Shown: positions 3,001-27,620 of the stretch, piece after piece
Numbering within the stretch: the first letter of the stretch is position 1
Layout: every line of letters starts with the position of its first letter
IMG/VR virus record: IMGVR_UViG_3300013132_000113
Span: 1-37,167 of that record
Direction: 5' to 3' (one strand)
DNA from: a virus
Length of the DNA stretch: 37,167 nt
The notes under the pieces: model-generated
The model's input: the letters and a program-made list of their open reading frames with translations, nothing else
Told to the model about the DNA's origin: nothing
Database searches by the model: none
Position numbers and translations under genes: made by a program

Positions 3001-6000
3001 TACAACAGTATCTAATGCTGAAGGAGAAAATCAATATGAAAGATCTCAAAAGAGTTCTGCATCTAATCAAGTTGATAAAATCAATAGGGCTGCTAGTATA
3101 ATAGAACTAACTCAGGAAGGGGTTGACAATTCTACAGACCGATCAATGAATCATCTTTCTAAATCTAGGAATCCTTTTATAAAAGGTTCCCGCATGATGA
3201 AAAGATTATTTGATGAAAAAGGGAATAAGAAGAAATTCGAAAATAAAACTTCCAGGATAAGACTGATTAACATGTCAGGATTATCTAAAGAACTAGAAGA
3301 AATAAAATCCTTTGTAAATGAAGAAGGTATTACTAATCAACAAGTAAAGAATTTATTTTCAGGAATTGCATCTGCCTCTGCAGATGCAGAATCAAAAAGA
3401 ATACAAGACTTTTATATGACTATGCTATTTGGAGTTGCTGAAGCAACCCGAAGTGCAGATAAGTCGACAACTCTATTATATAAAGTAGAAGGTCAAGATA
3501 AACACTATATATCTTTAAAAAATAGCTTTATTGTTACAGATAGCTTTGGAAATATAGAAATAAGCCAAAATGGTCGAAGTCAAACTGTTGCTGCTTTTAT
3601 TGATTATATTTCTAACGAATACGAAAGAATACAAAAGCTTAAAGATGGAGATCCTGCAGGTAATGTAACGGTAGGTAAAAAAACTTATAAAGAAATAGCA
3701 ACAAGCTTTGTGATTTTTAAAGATGTTCTTGGAAAATTGGATAGTGAAATTGAATCTATTGAGAATGTAAAAACTTCTGAAGATTTCATAAACTACTTAA
3801 ACAACAACAATCAAATAAGACAAGAGCTTCAAAATAAAGTTAATAGTTATCTAAATAGAAAAGAAAAAGAGTTTTTAGATTTTTTAAATTCTATAAACTT
3901 CTTTGAGTTTTCCAATATGATCGGGCCAATACTAAGAGAATACGGTATTAAACCTGAAAAATATAAGGAATTAACTCCTGAAAATAAATTAGAAGTTAAT
4001 AAAGCAATTGTTAGAGGTTATATTGCAAATGACTGGATTAGCAGATATGAAGCTACTATTGTGTTTCAAGGTGATCCAGCATTGTATGATCATAGTAAAG
4101 ATGATTTCTTTAAAAGAAATGCTGGATTTGCATCTACGGGAGAATTCCCAAGGATAGATCCATATATGATCAGCTATGTAAATAAAAAACTTTCACAAAA
4201 TAGTTTAGCTGCTAAAAAAGGATATCAAGTAAAACCCTTTGGCAGAACGATGTCTACTGCCGTTCTTGAGGATAAAGTTACTAAGTCAAAGTACTATGAC
4301 GAGTATGTAAAGGCAACTAAAGAAAAAGAAGAAACTCGTTTAAGAAAATTAAATATATCTGAAAAAGAAATACAGGAGACCCTTAGTGTTATAGATAAAA
4401 CTTTTGAAGAGACCTATGCTGATATGAAAGAGGGTGATGGTCAAGGTTGGATTAACTTTGATGCATACAGAAATCTACTCACATCGTTAAATCTTTGGTC
4501 TTCCCAACAAGAAAAACTTTATATAGATATAATTAATGGTGTTGATGTTTCAGCAAAAGACATTACTCAATTCTTCCCTGTAAAGAAGTTTCAGTATTGG
4601 GGACAACTAGATAGCAAAGGTCTTCCTGTTGTAGGATTTCATAAGTTCTCTCTTATGCCTTTGATTCCTAACATGTTAAAACCAGGAACAGGTTTAGCAA
4701 TTCTTCAGGATAAAATGTTGGAACAAGGTGTTGATTATGCACTGTTTCAATCAGGATCCAAAATCAATACTATAACCACAAATGGTAAAGTAGATAAGTT
4801 TTATAATGATAATAAAAATTATCAAGATAGAACTGTTGCGTTTGCAGATCCTGGTTTTAAATTTACCAAGAACGATATTTTCTTAGACTATCTTAAAGAT
4901 CAGGTATCAGTAAACGATGTGTACAAAGGAAAGAATACCTTCTCCACACAGCTTAGAAAATTAATTGAACAAGGTCTTTATGAATATGGAGTACCTACAG
5001 ACTGGAGACCAGAAATAACAAATGATACTGAACGGGTTAATGCATGGAAATATGCTAAACCTAAGGAGAGACAAGAGTCTGATCATTATAATAAAGTTCA
5101 ACGATACGAAGAAGCCCTTAATAAATTAGTTGATATTAAGAAAGAAAAGCTCAAGAATGAGATTGGTAAAGATAAAAAATCTCTTATTGAGTTTATTAAA
5201 AAAGAATTAACAAGACAAGAGGTTGCTGATCACGTAGAAGACTTTATTGATTTTGATCCAACAACAAATAACTTTAAACATTCTTTAGAGCTTAGCTTAT
5301 CTATAGAAGATATAGAACGATTACTTGTTGGTGTAATTCAGAAACGACTTATCAATCTAAACGTAACCGGTGAATCTCTTGTTCAGGTATCTGGTGCAGG
5401 TTTTGAACAATCTGCTCTTAGAACTGCGGACATAGACGTAATGTTTGATGAAGGAACAAATGGTCTTAAGTTCTATAGACAAGATCCTGTTACTAAAAAG
5501 ACTTTGCCAATGCAGATTAAAATCTCAATGCAAGGTCCTTTTAAGAAACTATTAGAACTTCCAGATGTAAAAGAAAGATCAAACAGATTAAAGATTTCTA
5601 GATTAGAAGCATTAAATCAGTTAATATCTGATGAGGGTTGGATGTCCTCTAATGAAAACCGCAAACTAGTTACTCTTGTTTCTGTAAGGATACCGGTTCA
5701 AGGTTTGAACTCTATGGAGTTTATGGAAGTTGTGGAGTTCTTCCCGGAAAGCAGTAGTAATCTTATTGTTCTACCAGCCGAAATTGTAGCTAAATCTGGT
5801 GGTGACTTTGACATCGATAAGATGTTTACGATGTTCCCAAACATAGAATCAAAACTTGATTTTAATATTGAGGCTAACGTTAAACAAGTATCTGACTTTG
5901 TTGGAAAGACTCTTACCAAAAAAGAAATATTTGATGCAAAGAAAAAACAAAATAAGTTCGAGGATACTGGTGAAGACACAAGAACTGAGGTAGACAAAAA

Positions 6001-9000
6001 GATTATCGAAGCTTTAGACTCTATTGACTTTGATAATATGACCGTAGGATTAACTGCAGGAGAAGGTAGTAAGGCAGTTGAAAATGAAATATTAGATTCT
6101 ATAAAAGAAATCTTAGAACTTGCTGATAACTTTGTAAACCTGATTACTCCTAACACTACTTATGATCTTAAGAATTTAGCAACCGAGATGGCTGAAAAAG
6201 TTCGTAATGAAAAAGAAGTACCATCGGCAACTAAGATATTTGAGATTGAAAGAAACATATATAAGCATCAGTCTAACAGTATAGGTAAAACGATACTTGG
6301 TATAATAGCTGTAAACAATACTTTTAATTCTGTATTTTCTAGAACTGGATTATTGTTAAATTCAACTGCTTTTATAACCACAAAACTAGATGGAACAAAA
6401 GTATCTCACAGACAAAAACTAGAACTTCCTCACAATAATATTGGAGGAAGAATAGCATTGTCTGGATTATATGCAGCCAATGGTATAAAAAAGATATCTG
6501 ATATTATTAGTCAGATGATCAACGGTTCTGTTGACGTTGCTAGAGATGCATGGATTTTTGATATACAAGGTAATAAAGAAATCATTGGAGCCTTGATGTT
6601 TATGATTCAAGCAGGAGTTCCTGCAGACACGGCTGTTTACTTTGTATCTCAACCTATTATACAAGATTATATTAGAAGACAAAAAGAATACAAAAGTCAA
6701 ATACATGATGTATTAGGTCGTAACTCAGTAGGTTTATACTGGAGAAAAACGGCTTTAGAAGATATCATTATGGAGTATTCTGAGAATATTCCTGTGCCAC
6801 AAGATGAGAAAGGAGGGTTTAAAAAAGAAAAAATATTTGAAACTTTACAAAGATTAGCAACACAAGGTGTAAAAGATAATTTATTTACAAATGAATCTTT
6901 AATAAAGAATATAGAAAAGAAAGGTGAGTTTTCAAATGTAGACTTTGCAGTATTTGCTCATTTCATTGAAATAGAGGAGATGTCTAAAAAGGTAACTCAA
7001 ATTACTCAGAATCTAAACTTTGATACTACTAAAACATCTAACATGTTTGATGCTAGACATAAACTATATATGTTAGATGAAATAGAAAATGGAATTGATT
7101 CTGAAGCAATAAATGCTATTCTTGAGAACTCTCCAATAGGTGCTTTTCAAATCCAAGAATTTATATTAGATATATATAAAGACATCTTTCCAGTAAGAGA
7201 CAATAAAGAATTTGTAGATCATATATTAGGATTAAAAACAAGTTCAAAACCAGGAATTCCTCCTGCAATCAACACGATAAAAAAAGAAACAGATTTAGAC
7301 ACAGATGAAATTATAAGGAGATATAGAAACGATCTTATTTCTTACATCTTTCAAAACTCTTTTTATAAGTTTGATAGTGATGCAAAAACATATAGTAACA
7401 AAGATGTAAACTATAAAGTAGAAAGAATCTTATCCTTAAGTATGAGGTCTGGCGTTATAGTAAAAGACAATACTTTATTTGTAGATAGAACTACATTAAA
7501 GAATTCTTTTTATATAAAAGACAAATCAAGCATTTGGCAACAGGGAGTTGCACCAGTTCCTGATTATATGTTTAGCTCAGCATATTATAATGAGAATACA
7601 GCATATGAACTTTATGTAAAGTTTGTATATGAACGAGAAACATTAAGAACTCTTCCTGATTATTCTTTTGATACTATTTCTAAAACAAAAGAGTTTGATG
7701 AATATTACAAGGATCTTATGTCAACAGTTGGGACAGCGGAAAAAACAGCAGAGGGAAAAGCATATGAACTAGTTTTAAGAGACACAGCAGCAGAAAATGT
7801 AGGTTTGTTTGGAGCAATGTTCTTAGGTCAAAATTCTTATGCAAGTAAAATAGTCAAAGTCATAAACAATAAAAATTTGGTTTTAAAGTATCCTGTTCTT
7901 GATTTAATTTCTCCTAACACTATCAAGTATGCAGGAGAAACAATGATAAACTTATCTTTAAAGGGAAGATTAAGTAAAGAGCAAATAGATACTGCCAATA
8001 AGAACTTAATAAAGCTATCAGACCCGAACGTAAAAAAAGTTGATGACCCTATAGAAAATCTAAAAATATCTAAGCTCTTTAAAAAGTTTGCATTGTTTGC
8101 ACTGCTTCAATCTGGGGTAGATACTAGAAGTACATTCAGTATGATTAAAATTATTCCTAATGCTGACTATTTAGCATTAATGGAAAAACCATACAATGAC
8201 TTTTTAAATCTTTCCAGCAATGATAAGAATACGCTTTTTAATAATTATAAAACAGCATTTAAAAAACAATATAACGTATCTAATAAGTTCTTAGCTAATA
8301 GATTTAAAAACTATGCTGAGAACGTATCACAAAAAGATAAAAAGAGTTTAGGATTAGTTAAACAAAAGATTGCATCACAGGACAATGCCTTTGAAGGATC
8401 TTCTAATCCTGAGTTAGATGCGTTTGATTCTATGGATGCCCAAAAAGAAGTTAGTACTGATGTTATCACTATTAATGGAGTTAATATTGATCTTGCAGCT
8501 CTTGGTATTGGTTTCCAACCTAACTCTCAACAGTTAGAGGCTCTTCAAAAAATGGCTGATTTTATTGACAAAGACTTTTCTGAAAGTGCTGAAAATAATA
8601 TTTATACGTTAATGGGTTATGCCGGAACAGGAAAATCAAGCATTACTAAAATATTACTTAACTATATAAAGCAGACAGGATTAACCGCTAACGTAACAGC
8701 ACCTACTCACAGAGCTAAAAAGATTATAAAGGAATTAACTGGTAAAAAGGCAAGAACAATTCATAAAGAACTTGGACTAAAACCTGATCAAGATCTAGAA
8801 AAATTAAATCTTGCAAACTTAAAGTTTGCATTAGCTAGTAAGAATATCAAAGAAACTCCACCAGACATCTTGATAATAGATGAAGCATCATTTATAAATG
8901 ATGGATTACTTGATTCAATAAAACAAATCTTAATGACGGAAAACTATAAAGTAATATTTATAGGAGATCCTGCACAGTTAAGACCTGTAGATCAAAAAAC

Positions 9001-23046: not shown

Positions 23047-24118
23047 GTTCTTCTACTTTACTAACGTATTGATCTATAAATTCTTCATAAGTCTGTGTCA
23101 TCTTTACCTCAATGGTAATAGCACTTATGCTAGGATTAGGACAGTTTCTTTTGTTATCAGCTATTATATATTCTATTAGCTCATCCCATATACCTTTAGT
23201 AAGCTGTAACTTTTCAGCAAGATGTATCATAATTTCCTCGTGATCTAAATATCTTAATTCACGAACGATACCATTAAATATATCATGCATCTTTGTATTT
23301 CTAAATTTCTTATGATCCATTTTATAGCTGTAACTTTGAATAAGTTCCCAAATATAAAAATCTGACTTATCTAAATCACAGTTATATATTATCTGCATTG
23401 CTATAGCCCAATCTTCTGAAGATGAACTATCGAACATTGAGCATAATGTTTCATATGAAAAACTATCTAATGGAACTTTATCTATTGATTTAAACAAATC
23501 AATGTCATTTACAACAGGAATACCTTTAGATAAGATGTTATATAAAACTTGAGCACATTCATTTGAAATAACAGAATCATAATATTGATTACTAGTTACG
23601 GGAAAGGTAGGATAATTATACTGAAAAGTTCCCGGGCCAAACATAACATTTGTATTAGTGTCTGATATATCAGTACTCCAACGTACTCTACAATAATCTA
23701 CAAAGTCTGGATTTTTATAAGAAGCACAACTATCAAAGTATTCCTGATATATATAGGATCTTCTAGCAATTTTACCAGAAGAACCTGCTCTACCTATAGT
23801 GTTTGCATTACCTATAACCACATCAGCTTTCTTAGGATTAAGAGTAATAGTTAGATCTTTTTGTTTACAAACTTCTTTTAAATCATCTGTCTTTAGAGAA
23901 CTACCAGGAGTAATAAAAGCTTTCATACCTTTACTAAGAGATGAAACAGAAGCCCTCCCCGAGAGGAGAGCTTCTATTTTCTCTTTTTCTGTAACTCCTG
24001 AAAGCCTATGTACTATTTCTGCAGATCCTTCTCCTTTGATCAGGATATTAGTAGATGTTATAAAAGATAATTTACTTAATTCTGCAGTAGTAAGAAGGGG
24101 TTCAATTTTCTTTATCAT
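23036..24118 (-). CDS. Unknown 360-residue protein between nuclease and MoxR-type ATPase
   Basis: I do not recognise this protein. Its first 130 residues have alternating beta/alpha character (GMKAFITPGSS, KKADVVIGNANT), vaguely BRCT-like, but that is not convincing. The rest is helical with many aromatic residues. No membrane segment or nucleotide-binding loop is visible. It overlaps the nuclease gene by 11 bases and shares a TAATG-type one-base overlap with the AAA+ ATPase gene upstream, so it may be a partner of the ATPase or the nuclease. Confidence 0.7.
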   Translation of the reverse strand: MIKKIEPLLTTAELSKLSFITSTNILIKGEGSAEIVHRLSGVTEKEKIEALLSGRASVSSLSKGMKAFITPGSSLKTDDLKEVCKQKDLTITLNPKKADVVIGNANTIGRAGSSGKIARRSYIYQEYFDSCASYKNPDFVDYCRVRWSTDISDTNTNVMFGPGTFQYNYPTFPVTSNQYYDSVISNECAQVLYNILSKGIPVVNDIDLFKSIDKVPLDSFSYETLCSMFDSSSSEDWAIAMQIIYNCDLDKSDFYIWELIQSYSYKMDHKKFRNTKMHDIFNGIVRELRYLDHEEIMIHLAEKLQLTKGIWDELIEYIIADNKRNCPNPSISAITIEVKMTQTYEEFIDQYVSKVEEHDD

Positions 24119-25302
24119 TACTTAACGGCCATTTTAACAACTTCAGGATTCATCATTAGCTTGCTAAACTTAGCTTTGTTACCATTAAGAATATTCTTTA
24201 CCATATGATATTTCAAATCATTAGTAAATAATTCTTCAGTAATCAAATTAGTAACTCGGTCAATAATCTTTTGAGTTACATCTGAAGTATTAGAATAATG
24301 AACAGTGTAATTAATAATCCTTGTTGCCATTACACTTGCTATGTCTGCACGATAAGCAGGCCCATGTCCAACAGATGCTTTCAAAGCACTAGATACTTTA
24401 TCCCAATCAGCACCAGTAAGAACCTCCTTAGGAGTAATCATCTTATCTAGTCGATTGTTAATGAACATAGTAAACATAGTACCAAACTCTGCACCAACAG
24501 AACCTTCTGCAATAAACTGAATCATTGGAAGATTATCTTCAAACGTTTCAAAAGAACTAATGGAATTAAAGAAAGTAGTAATACTACGAGCATTAGTTTC
24601 TCTGGTTACTAACTCCGGATGCATCAATAAGAAATTAATACAACGAGAGTCTACACCATTTTGCTCAGCCCATTTTGCCCAACAGTCAATATCAAACTTT
24701 AGATTAGCTGTAATGAATCGAGTCTTTTGAGCTGTGTCAATAGACTGAACATTATAATCTCCATTATCTGGATTAGTAGTAAGAATGATGTGCCAATCTT
24801 TTGGGAGCTTCCATGAAATATATTCTTGCCTATCGATCAGATCCATACAAGCTTGTAAGAACCTAGCATCAGCCCGAGTATAGTCATCAAGAATAAGAAT
24901 ACCACCCTCACCTTTACCTTGTATCCATTCAGGTGCAGCATGTGTCATTCTCTTCTCTCCAGTAGGCACATATTTATTTTGCACATACATTTGTAAAATA
25001 CTTTCAGGAACCCACTTGGTAATAACATTACCTGTCTCATCCTTCTTCTTAATCTCAAACTCCTTCATAGGGAAACCAGTCAAGTCACCTATCTCTTCAA
25101 TCTGAGCTAGGTTTAACTTAACAACATTAAGACCAAGACCATTTCCTATTTCAAGAATAGTACTAGTCTTACCAATACCTGCCTCACCCTCTACAGCAAC
25201 AGCAACAGGAATCTTTCCATTAGACTGGAGATAACGATTATTATTTACAATGTGGTTAATAAAACCTTTAAGTTCTTCTGTGTTTAAATTTACTTGTGCC
25301 AT
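24118..25302 (-). CDS. MoxR-type AAA+ ATPase
   Basis: The 394-residue AAA+ protein has Walker A GEAGIGKT at 39-46, Walker B ILILDD at 135-140 and sensor 1 TTNPDN with N177. The layout, with a long insert before Walker B and the phrase TRADARFLQACMDLID, fits the MoxR branch. MoxR ATPases usually act as chaperone-like remodelling enzymes together with a VWA-domain partner encoded next door. Here the VWA metallopeptidase-like gene is directly upstream (20 bases), an established pairing in bacteria. The substrate is unknown; in a phage it may remodel a replication, virion or host complex. Confidence 0.9.
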   Translation of the reverse strand: MAQVNLNTEELKGFINHIVNNNRYLQSNGKIPVAVAVEGEAGIGKTSTILEIGNGLGLNVVKLNLAQIEEIGDLTGFPMKEFEIKKKDETGNVITKWVPESILQMYVQNKYVPTGEKRMTHAAPEWIQGKGEGGILILDDYTRADARFLQACMDLIDRQEYISWKLPKDWHIILTTNPDNGDYNVQSIDTAQKTRFITANLKFDIDCWAKWAEQNGVDSRCINFLLMHPELVTRETNARSITTFFNSISSFETFEDNLPMIQFIAEGSVGAEFGTMFTMFINNRLDKMITPKEVLTGADWDKVSSALKASVGHGPAYRADIASVMATRIINYTVHYSNTSDVTQKIIDRVTNLITEELFTNDLKYHMVKNILNGNKAKFSKLMMNPEVVKMAVK

Positions 25303-25322: not shown

Positions 25323-26301
25323 TCAATTAAGTTTTATCTGAGGTCCGGGCAAGCTCTTATTTATTTCTCCGCGAGTTGATATTACCCAAAGCATTTTACC
25401 TCTAGGTATAACATCTGTATTACACTCACCGTCAGTAAGATATACCAAACAACTATATCTGCCTATGTTTTGATTATAATATTCTAGCACTGGATCAAAA
25501 TCGGTACCACCTCTTCCGTGGATTTTACAATTATCACCTGCTTTATACTTTCCAATAAATGTGATTGTAGTATCACATTGTATAATAGTAATTTCAGAAC
25601 CTGTCTTGTTAATATGATCTATTTCATTTAGAAATTCTTTTAGTTCTTTATCACTAACAGAACCACTAGTATCAATAGCAACAAGAATGTGTCTTCTTTG
25701 CTTAATCTTAAGACCTGGATTTTCTTCAAATCTTTTATTGTGTTTTCTTCTAAGCTTTTTAGTAAACACAATTTGAGAACCTCCTGCAAAACGTCTTAGA
25801 TATGATTTCCAATCAAACTTAGCTGGCTCTTTTGTTCTAAGTTTTTGTATTATCTCACTGAATTCTCCGGGAATGCTACCACAAGATTTCTCTACTTGTT
25901 CCGCAATTTCTTTTAAGATATGTTCTGTTTGGCTACGAAGCAATTTCTTTTCTGCTTCACTTAAATCTTCAAAGTCTCCCCATGTACTATGGTCTGGTAC
26001 AAAATCTCCGTCTTCGGTTTGGGATTTACCTTCTCCTATAGCAATAAGAATCTTCTGAAGTTTTTGACCACCCGATCCCCCGTTTTTATCTTGCTCCTGT
26101 TTAAGGATATCATAATAGGTTCTCCAACCTGCCTTCACAGGTAGATTTAATTCTGGAAACCCATCTATTGTACAACCACCTTCAGGAAGATACTCAGGAT
26201 CAATATATTGATTTATCTCTAAATCCATTGCAATGTTTGCAAGGTTCTTATCCAAACTAGGATCATCATGAGAATCAAGGTGAAAGAATCCTATATGCAA
26301 T
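25323..26301 (-). CDS. VWA metallopeptidase-like protein (DUF2201-type), exon 2
   Basis: This is the 3' exon of a 399-residue protein. In the spliced numbering it begins with the last base of codon 74, then L75-H76, completing HELLH. It continues with a conserved ANIAMDLEINQYI helix typical of the DUF2201 N-terminal domain, a charged middle, and a C-terminal von Willebrand A domain. The MIDAS metal site is visible as DTSGS at 284-288, GRGGTDFDP later and LTDGE. The frame contains no ATG near its 5' end; TTG at 26300 is not a real start. Such proteins partner MoxR ATPases, and the adjacent downstream gene is one. The product is only made from spliced RNA, with exon 1 at 27400-27620. Confidence 0.88.
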
Positions 26302-27399
26302 CATAATGTTAGCTTACATTTTCATGTAAGATCGGACTATACCTTTACCCGTATTGGGGTAATCCATTATAGTCTCTGAACCTTTTTCTTGGCTTATAGT
26401 TTAAAAGATAGTTATCAAATATTTGTTTTTTTCTTTCTAAATAAACATTAGCATTTTTGTACATATAATTACATAAAGCTAAAGAATCATTTAGAGAAAA
26501 TTTTGTAGTGTAAACACAATTATGATAAATACTTTTATTCTTAACTGGAAGTTTTTCCAATAACTGTTTAATAAATAACTCAGAACCTGAACATATTCCT
26601 GATTTTAAAACCTTCCAATCGTTTGATTTTAAGTTTGTATATATACCTACTGTTCCATCACCATCAAAGTAACCACGTATAAAATGATGAATTAGGCCAT
26701 CATGTATGCGAGGAAATGTAATAGTTTTAGACTTAGTCGGTGTACAACCAAGAGTATTAAGATCATTAAACATTTGAGAACTAGTTATTTGAGCTTTCCA
26801 TACATAAGTGTTATACTTTTTATGAAACTCTTTTCTAGGTTTATTAGTAGACTCAATGTCTTTCATAAAGTTTACCACCCAGTCTTCATCAGAACTTGTT
26901 AAAAAGATCTGACCAGATTTACTAGCCCTTTTGGATATATTCCCATCAGCATATAAAGCACCTAACCAGTAAGCTTTAATTTCATTATCTATATTTGAAA
27001 AGAAACTATCGTTACAGGTATACTTCATTGATGCTTCAGATAGATTACGTAGTTTTATACCCCGCCTAAGTAAAATTGCTCTTACTGTTTTTACATTACA
27101 TTGTGCATGTAATGAAACTTTTTTAGCAGAAAATCCCTTAGAATAGTAATTAATTACGAGTTCTTCTTTTTCTTTTGTGGTCACAATGTGTAATTATTTA
27201 TACTTCAATATACCACTTTTATTTTACATTACCAAGAAACTTGGCTGCGGATTGACCAATGTTTATCTTTTTTACTTTACCCAAGTGATTAGCTTGGCCA
27301 CAAACACATTACTATGTTTATTTAGTAGATAAACCCCTAAGGTTTTTCCCGTCAGTTTAGGATATTTTACATACACATTACTGTGTAAGGAGCCCATTG
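26302..27399 (-). mobile_element. Group I intron interrupting the VWA metallopeptidase-like gene
   Basis: This is a 1098-base self-splicing-type intron with borders set by three agreeing signs. First, exon 1 ends GAGCT, which pairs with GGCTC at 27394-27390 to form P1 with the required U.G at the 5' splice site. Second, the intron's first four bases CAAT pair with the 3' exon start ATTG to form P10. Third, the intron ends in G (26302). Joining the exons keeps the frame and makes HELLH. Core-like segments are visible on the minus strand: AAACTGACGGGAAAAACC (27358-27341), GGTCAATCCGCAGCCAAG (27257-27240) and the typical GGTATAGTCCGA box (about 26343-26332). The last is followed by a P9-like hairpin with a GAAA loop at 26330-26313. 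The homing endonuclease gene occupies a peripheral loop, probably that of P8. Confidence 0.92.
26345..27184 (-). CDS. LAGLIDADG homing endonuclease encoded in the group I intron
   Basis: The 279-residue protein has two LAGLIDADG-type motifs: YWLGALYADG at 72-81 and IRGYFDGDG at 169-177, with D80 and D176 as the catalytic acidic residues. It is therefore a single-chain, pseudo-symmetric enzyme. Residues about 8-45 form a helix-turn-helix-like resolvase-style DNA-binding segment. The start is GTG. Such enzymes cut intron-less copies of the host gene so that repair copies the intron across. The target is expected to span the exon junction at the HELLH codons. The stop codon abuts the conserved GGTATAGTCC core box, so gene and ribozyme end are tightly interleaved. 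Confidence 0.92.
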   Translation of the reverse strand: MTTKEKEELVINYYSKGFSAKKVSLHAQCNVKTVRAILLRRGIKLRNLSEASMKYTCNDSFFSNIDNEIKAYWLGALYADGNISKRASKSGQIFLTSSDEDWVVNFMKDIESTNKPRKEFHKKYNTYVWKAQITSSQMFNDLNTLGCTPTKSKTITFPRIHDGLIHHFIRGYFDGDGTVGIYTNLKSNDWKVLKSGICSGSELFIKQLLEKLPVKNKSIYHNCVYTTKFSLNDSLALCNYMYKNANVYLERKKQIFDNYLLNYKPRKRFRDYNGLPQYG

Positions 27400-27620
27400 A
27401 GCTCATGTTTTAACAAGCCTATCTTATGTTTATCAGGAAGACTATTCCAAAACTCAGGATTAATTAACAGTTGATAGTTAATATTATTTTTACAAACACC
27501 TGCTGTTGGAATCTTATCACCCCAAATTTTATTAAGGCTAATAAGAAACAAACCATAGAAAGGCTCTTTTAGCATAAGCTCTTTACTGGCTCTTGCTAAC
27601 GTGTCATTGTTGTTATTCAT
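27400..27620 (-). CDS. VWA metallopeptidase-like protein (DUF2201-type), exon 1
   Basis: The 5' exon gives residues 1-73 and two bases of codon 74. It shows the DUF2201 N-terminal pattern: KEPFYGLFLISL, then YQLLINPEFWNSLPDKHKIG and LLKHEL. The HE at 72-73 is the first half of a zinc-binding HExxH; the second histidine comes from exon 2. Read without splicing, the frame adds seven intron codons and stops at TAA 27380-27378, giving an 80-residue fragment. Its start overlaps the stop of the upstream gene as ATGA. Confidence 0.85.

Follow-up and report, generated by a model that had tools for sequence, protein, structure and literature searches.

A putative mobile group I intron with a LAGLIDADG endonuclease gene in the predicted zinc motif of a DUF2201 gene from a crAss-like phage

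Introduction

Phage Twort is said to carry three group I introns in a single gene, orf142. In crAss-like phages of the Delta and Zeta groups, core genes are interrupted by group I introns with endonucleases of the LAGLIDADG family or of other kinds, with up to 14 introns per genome, and MCP, PolB, primase and ATP_43b have been reported as hosts (Yutin et al., 2021, PMC7886860). The Jug phages of the gut contain many group I introns, some of them with LAGLIDADG endonucleases, and metatranscriptomes support their splicing (PMC12363816). Phage introns tend towards genes for conserved proteins (PMC3984707).

Here, we analyse a stretch of viral DNA of 37,167 nucleotides (the whole of positions 1 to 37,167 of IMG/VR record IMGVR_UViG_3300013132_000113; hereafter, the window). 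Judged by its gene content, the window is a fragment of a crAss-like phage of bacteria. One open reading frame (ORF) of 3540 aa contains DFDID, a DxDxD motif, and this middle segment of the ORF matches only 12 records, all crAss-like (uncultured cr-numbered phages and Kehishuvirus), some of them annotated as RNA polymerase. The DNA polymerase is closest to that of Cellulophaga phi14:2, and the window combines the giant RNA polymerase with DxDxD and the crAss-type replication genes by which Crassvirales are recognized. Neither a capsid nor a terminase gene was recognized in the window, and a search for tRNA genes found none. We conclude, with a probability of about 0.95, that a mobile group I intron, which carries a homing endonuclease gene (HEG) of the LAGLIDADG family, has invaded the DUF2201 gene of this phage within the HELLH motif, and that splicing would restore the zinc motif.

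Results

The locus spans positions 25323-27620 of the minus strand and consists of exon 1, intron and exon 2 of one DUF2201 metallopeptidase/VWA gene. It is covered on this strand by ORFs of 80 aa (27620-27378), 279 aa (27184-26345) and 325 aa (26300-25323), and the unspliced host frame meets a stop after HELNGLLTQ. Exon 1 (27400-27620, 221 nt) ends within the Leu codon of HE-L. Exon 2 (25323-26301, 979 nt with the stop) contributes the last base of that codon, continues with the LH of HELLH and contains the VWA-like domain. The intron (26302-27399, 1098 nt) interrupts the first Leu codon in HELLH after its second base. Its removal joins CATGAGCT to ATTGCATA at 27400/26301, and the 1200 nt of the joined exons read ...LLKHEL|LHIGFFH... 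through 399 codons and a stop. The joined product scores 60.8 bits with PF13203 (DUF2201_N) and 66 bits with PF09967, both above the cut-offs, and has both the HExxH domain and the VWA-like domain, whereas the two unjoined pieces reach 24.9 (exon 1) and 20.3 bits with DUF2201_N. The predicted HELLH and MIDAS motifs are assigned from these Pfam domains, and HELLH is kept in 237 of the 240 full-length proteins collected. The host protein is a predicted metallopeptidase, presumably with catalytic activity. It matches 535 annotated phage records, which often bear the name HNH endonuclease. This label appears to be wrong, because no HNH domain was found in the joined product; phrog_1314 labels the DUF2201 metallopeptidase/VWA protein in the same way. 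The downstream gene on the same strand (24118-25302; phrog_1297 ATPase, E=9.9e-36) encodes an AAA ATPase, MoxR-like by context, which from the gene neighbourhood is likely the partner of the VWA protein.

A local Rfam scan of positions 26200-27500 with permissive filters matched Intron_gpI (RF00028) twice on the minus strand and in order, at 27354-27212 (model positions 60-138, 19.8 bits, E=0.023) and at 26451-26313 (up to the model end at 253, 31.6 bits, E=6.7e-6). Scans of the whole window, in gathering and in E-value mode, gave no match, an effect of the 840-nt ORF that interrupts the core; for the same reason, the window intron alone scores below the RF00028 gathering score of 50. A 303-nt intron without HEG at the same bond (L286, L287, L288 and L303) matches the full model with 80.4 bits, against the gathering score of 50. 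The window intron has the P/Q/R/S core and the P3-P8 fold of a group I intron, together with a P1 helix with U.G at the 5´ splice site, a P10 pairing and a terminal G. P1 pairs GAGCU at the end of exon 1 (27400-27404), which supplies the U of the U.G pair, with the guide sequence GGCUC (27390-27394), and P10 pairs CAAU of the intron (27396-27399) with AUUG of exon 2 (26298-26301). In the core, P4 is formed by the P element (27349-27355) and the Q element CCGCAG (27245-27250), P6a by UUUCUUGG (27232-27239) and CCAAGAAA (26385-26392), and P7 by the R element GACUA (26370-26374) and the S element UAGUC (26335-26339). The P9 hairpin, CUUACAU-GAAA-AUGUAAG (26313-26330), is followed by the terminal G at 26302; all these elements are on the minus strand. 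Self-splicing of the intron in cells would be expected from this organization. An AGCCAAG repeat at both ends of the HEG was considered as an insertion-site duplication and rejected, the repeat being the P6a helix.

The HEG, on which the preliminary description of this DNA was silent, fills most of the intron. It is an ORF of 279 aa with a GTG start (26345-27184, minus strand) that is located in the P6a loop and includes the 3´ strand of that helix, such that its last codons overlap P6a, P6, P7, P3 and P8. Its product matches PF14528 (LAGLIDADG_3) in two stretches, with 31.1 bits against a curated cut-off of 22.5, and the endonuclease family phrog_4645 (E=2.9e-52); the best PDB match, 2dch, is weak (E=0.089). 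Aligned with its relatives, it has both LAGLIDADG motifs (YWLGALYADG and GYFDGDG) and the invariant acidic residues. An enzyme of this kind presumably cleaves the intron-less allele.

The junction is colinear and ungapped in all of the 80 nearest IMG/VR homologues (50-73% identity to the joined protein), which read GLLKHELLHI or near it, and the nearest relatives of the window gene (70-73% identity) are all without the intron. A single-sequence search of IMG/VR with the window endonuclease gave no match, and a profile of six endonucleases was required to find relatives. This profile found L090-L101, which have an intron at the same residue of the same gene. Their endonucleases are 58-62% identical and their DNA is about 68-72% identical along the whole intron; their exons, joined at the same bond, give an intact ORF or run on to a second intron (L091 and L093). 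In L102, a related intron is inserted one base further on, as established partly by inspection. A pattern for the 5´ splice site retrieved 45 stretches from IMG/VR, with the gene present in 38 and both splice sites in 28 by the rule used; the counts of 38 and 28 were made by hand and include near-copies. By these searches, at least 38 contigs besides the window have this intron at the identical bond. Same-site introns that include the endonuclease are about 1.1 kb long, and those that lack it measure 272, 296 or 303 nt; L331 and L350 are further examples without the HEG. In L092 and L325, splicing would give HELLP in place of HELLH through an apparent one-base insertion that is compensated a few bases on; their sister contig L337 is without the inserted base, which points to either an error in sequencing or damage to the allele.

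The preliminary description had placed a group I intron within the HExxH motif of a VWA metallopeptidase gene, and the covariance matches, the 80 colinear homologues and the same-bond relatives bear this out. Its splice points (27400/27399 and 26302/26301, dividing HEL from LH), P1, P10 and terminal G all proved exact, and its 1200 joined bases or 400 codons correspond to the 399 codons and stop. The two computational tests by which it could have been refuted both spoke for it: the minus-strand covariance search matched the two halves, in the local scan only, and none of the 80 nearest homologues has a protein-level insertion at the junction, the relatives interrupted there carrying the intron between exons that join to an intact ORF. 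The score of 60.8 bits over the joined product agrees with its DUF2201 assignment, and the two broken proteins that it foresaw from genomic ORF calling are the 80-aa and 325-aa ORFs.

Compensatory changes are found across the border of intron and exon. Among 23 distinct introns at this site, the first intron base and the fourth base of exon 2 combine as C-G (16), U-A (5), U-G (1) or C-A (1), and they can pair in all except L350; exon 2 base 4 is a synonymous position of a Leu codon. P1 is altered on both strands in L316 (GAACU with GGUUC). In a set of 21 introns that represents three sites, pairing is seen in 1098 of 1155 helix cells (95%), a percentage biased towards the window, on whose sequence the pairing structure was drawn. 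Double-change pairs number 32, a count inflated by kinship, compared to an average of 18.7 in 300 shuffles (maximum 25) and to 6-10 with slid partners. P9 has double changes among the relatives at all 7 pairs, and P7 is invariant among the introns compared and so uninformative. P1 and P10 covary across the intron-exon border, and so do helices of the core.

Movement of the intron family is seen in comparisons between its members. The empty alleles L250 and L251 encode proteins 97% identical to that of intron-bearing L101, and the joined flanks of L101 align ungapped to L250. For L093 and L090, intron DNA is 99.1% and exon DNA 84.7% identical, and for L092 and L091 the values are 94.4% and 69.2%. 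A quick FastTree gene tree of 108 proteins requires at least 11 intron gains or losses. These comparisons show that the family spreads laterally between phages: an intron-less allele of 97% identity exists, and intron DNA is more alike than the surrounding exons. For the window copy itself, identities to relatives are close in the intron (70-74%) and in the exons (65-72%), which gives no sign of a recent transfer into this phage. Co-conversion of the flanking exons was not detected in a test against intron-less pairs of like identity, third-position identity being 0.572 vs 0.506 in codons 65-74 and 0.552 vs 0.521 in codons 75-84, no higher than elsewhere in the gene. One may ask from this whether the window intron still splices while its endonuclease is inactive, the copy being inherited and no longer moving. 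The intron-less state of the nearest gene relatives fits such a history, as do the HEG-less copies at the same site, which indicate that the family passes through loss. We nevertheless consider it unlikely, if far from negligible, given that the window HEG is a full ORF of 279 aa with both motifs and the invariant acidic residues, and that the intron family, taken together, moves laterally. A mobile intron with its own endonuclease remains our preferred reading of the window locus.

The gene has two further intron sites. Related LAGLIDADG introns are found after D100 (D|LEIN) in L103, L104, L105, L106, L121 and L124 and as the second intron of L091, and between G339 and T340 (GG|TD) in L110, L111, L114, L117, L122 and L139 and as the second intron of L093. 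By analogy, GG|TD would be the MIDAS motif of the VWA domain, and the D-x-E-I-N motif may bind metal. The three sites are among the most conserved junctions of the gene, ranking 2nd, 16th and 20th of 389 by the mean entropy of the eight flanking residues. Hopping of one intron within the gene may be their origin; the endonuclease tree has separate site-specific clades (local support S1 99, S2 99, S3 100) and does not firmly join them. We find it probable that the DUF2201 gene is a repeated landing place of LAGLIDADG introns, with three sites (zinc, D-x-E-I-N and MIDAS) colonized separately and the HEGs converging on catalytic or metal-binding codons; this would be a natural data set on such convergence in a single protein.

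Several other arrangements were seen at or near related loci. In L121, the D100 intron includes a sequence similar to the first part of exon 2 (ATGGAAATTAATTAGTATATTAG), which may be a recombination fossil. Beside the DUF2201 gene and in opposite orientation to it, L107, L108, L115, L123, L133 and L135 have LAGLIDADG genes of a further related clade, members of which are also near L096 and L110. On the mini-intron contig L286 (5527-7792), a group I intron (58.1 bits at 6730-6982) interrupts the adjoining ATPase gene as well; this intron has a GIY-YIG-like ORF, recognized by eye (5973-6773), and lies closely 3´ of a Walker B-like stretch, ILDDYTRAD. In L089, a phage record of 735 kb, an M16-type peptidase ORF is followed by a LAGLIDADG ORF.

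Discussion

In the mechanism that we propose, the intron would fold within the transcript into P1-P9, with the HEG in the loop of P6a. A guanosine would attack directly behind GAGCU, which P1 keeps in place. Exon 1 would in turn attack behind the terminal G, with exon 2 positioned by P10, such that HEL and LH are rejoined and the zinc motif HELLH is restored. At the DNA level, the endonuclease would cut intron-less alleles at a nearly invariant stretch, and repair from an intron-bearing phage genome would copy the intron into the cut allele.

The placement of the intron raises the question of regulated splicing, in which the intron would be a switch that withholds the metallopeptidase up to a certain point of the infection. 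Position is the only indication of this: the intron interrupts the catalytic motif, and the unspliced product stops after HELNGLLTQ. Such a role is very improbable, because the position is explained by a preference of the endonuclease for conserved target DNA, and all of the 80 nearest relatives are without the intron, which is thus dispensable to such phages. A chance arrangement of two unrelated ORFs, or a chimeric contig, might have been suspected from the empty whole-window Rfam scans, but has next to no credibility and is ruled out by independent contigs in which this intron recurs at the identical bond, with covariation. Inteins typically interrupt catalytic motifs and carry a LAGLIDADG nuclease, a description that fits this locus too, but an intein or other in-frame insertion in place of an RNA intron is the least credible reading, ruled out by in-frame stops of the host frame right after exon 1 and opposed by the group I core with P1 and P10.

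The intron family offers a clean natural experiment on homing: one phage gene has intron-plus and intron-minus alleles at 97% identity, introns at one bond come both with and without the HEG, and intron bases covary with synonymous exon bases. With three motif sites in one protein, the rule that introns sit at functional codons becomes measurable within a single gene. ORF calling and whole-contig Rfam scans overlook such genes and return two broken ORFs in place of a common phage protein.

Among known systems, the introns of crAss-like phages (Yutin et al., 2021, PMC7886860) are like the window intron in phage order and in the type of intron and endonuclease. They differ in host: metallopeptidase or VWA genes are unmentioned as hosts in the main text of that study, whereas the window intron is in a DUF2201 gene, and we found no report of this gene as an intron host in the literature searched, supplements aside. 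The Jug phage introns (PMC12363816) belong to another phage clade and interrupt terL, nrdD and polymerase genes. Introns beside recombinase and polymerase genes of Staphylococcus phages (e.g. L087 and L086) have LAGLIDADG-type endonucleases homologous to that of the window (25-30% identity) and 5´ cores that align with its core at 72-76% DNA identity over about 145 nt, but differ from it in gene, site and host. As in orf142 of Twort, several related introns occupy separate sites of one phage gene. Unlike that case, the three sites are distributed across the DUF2201 family, with at most two per genome seen (L091 and L093), and are occupied by site-specific LAGLIDADG lineages. The kind of intron is already known; what is new here is the host gene and the sites of insertion.
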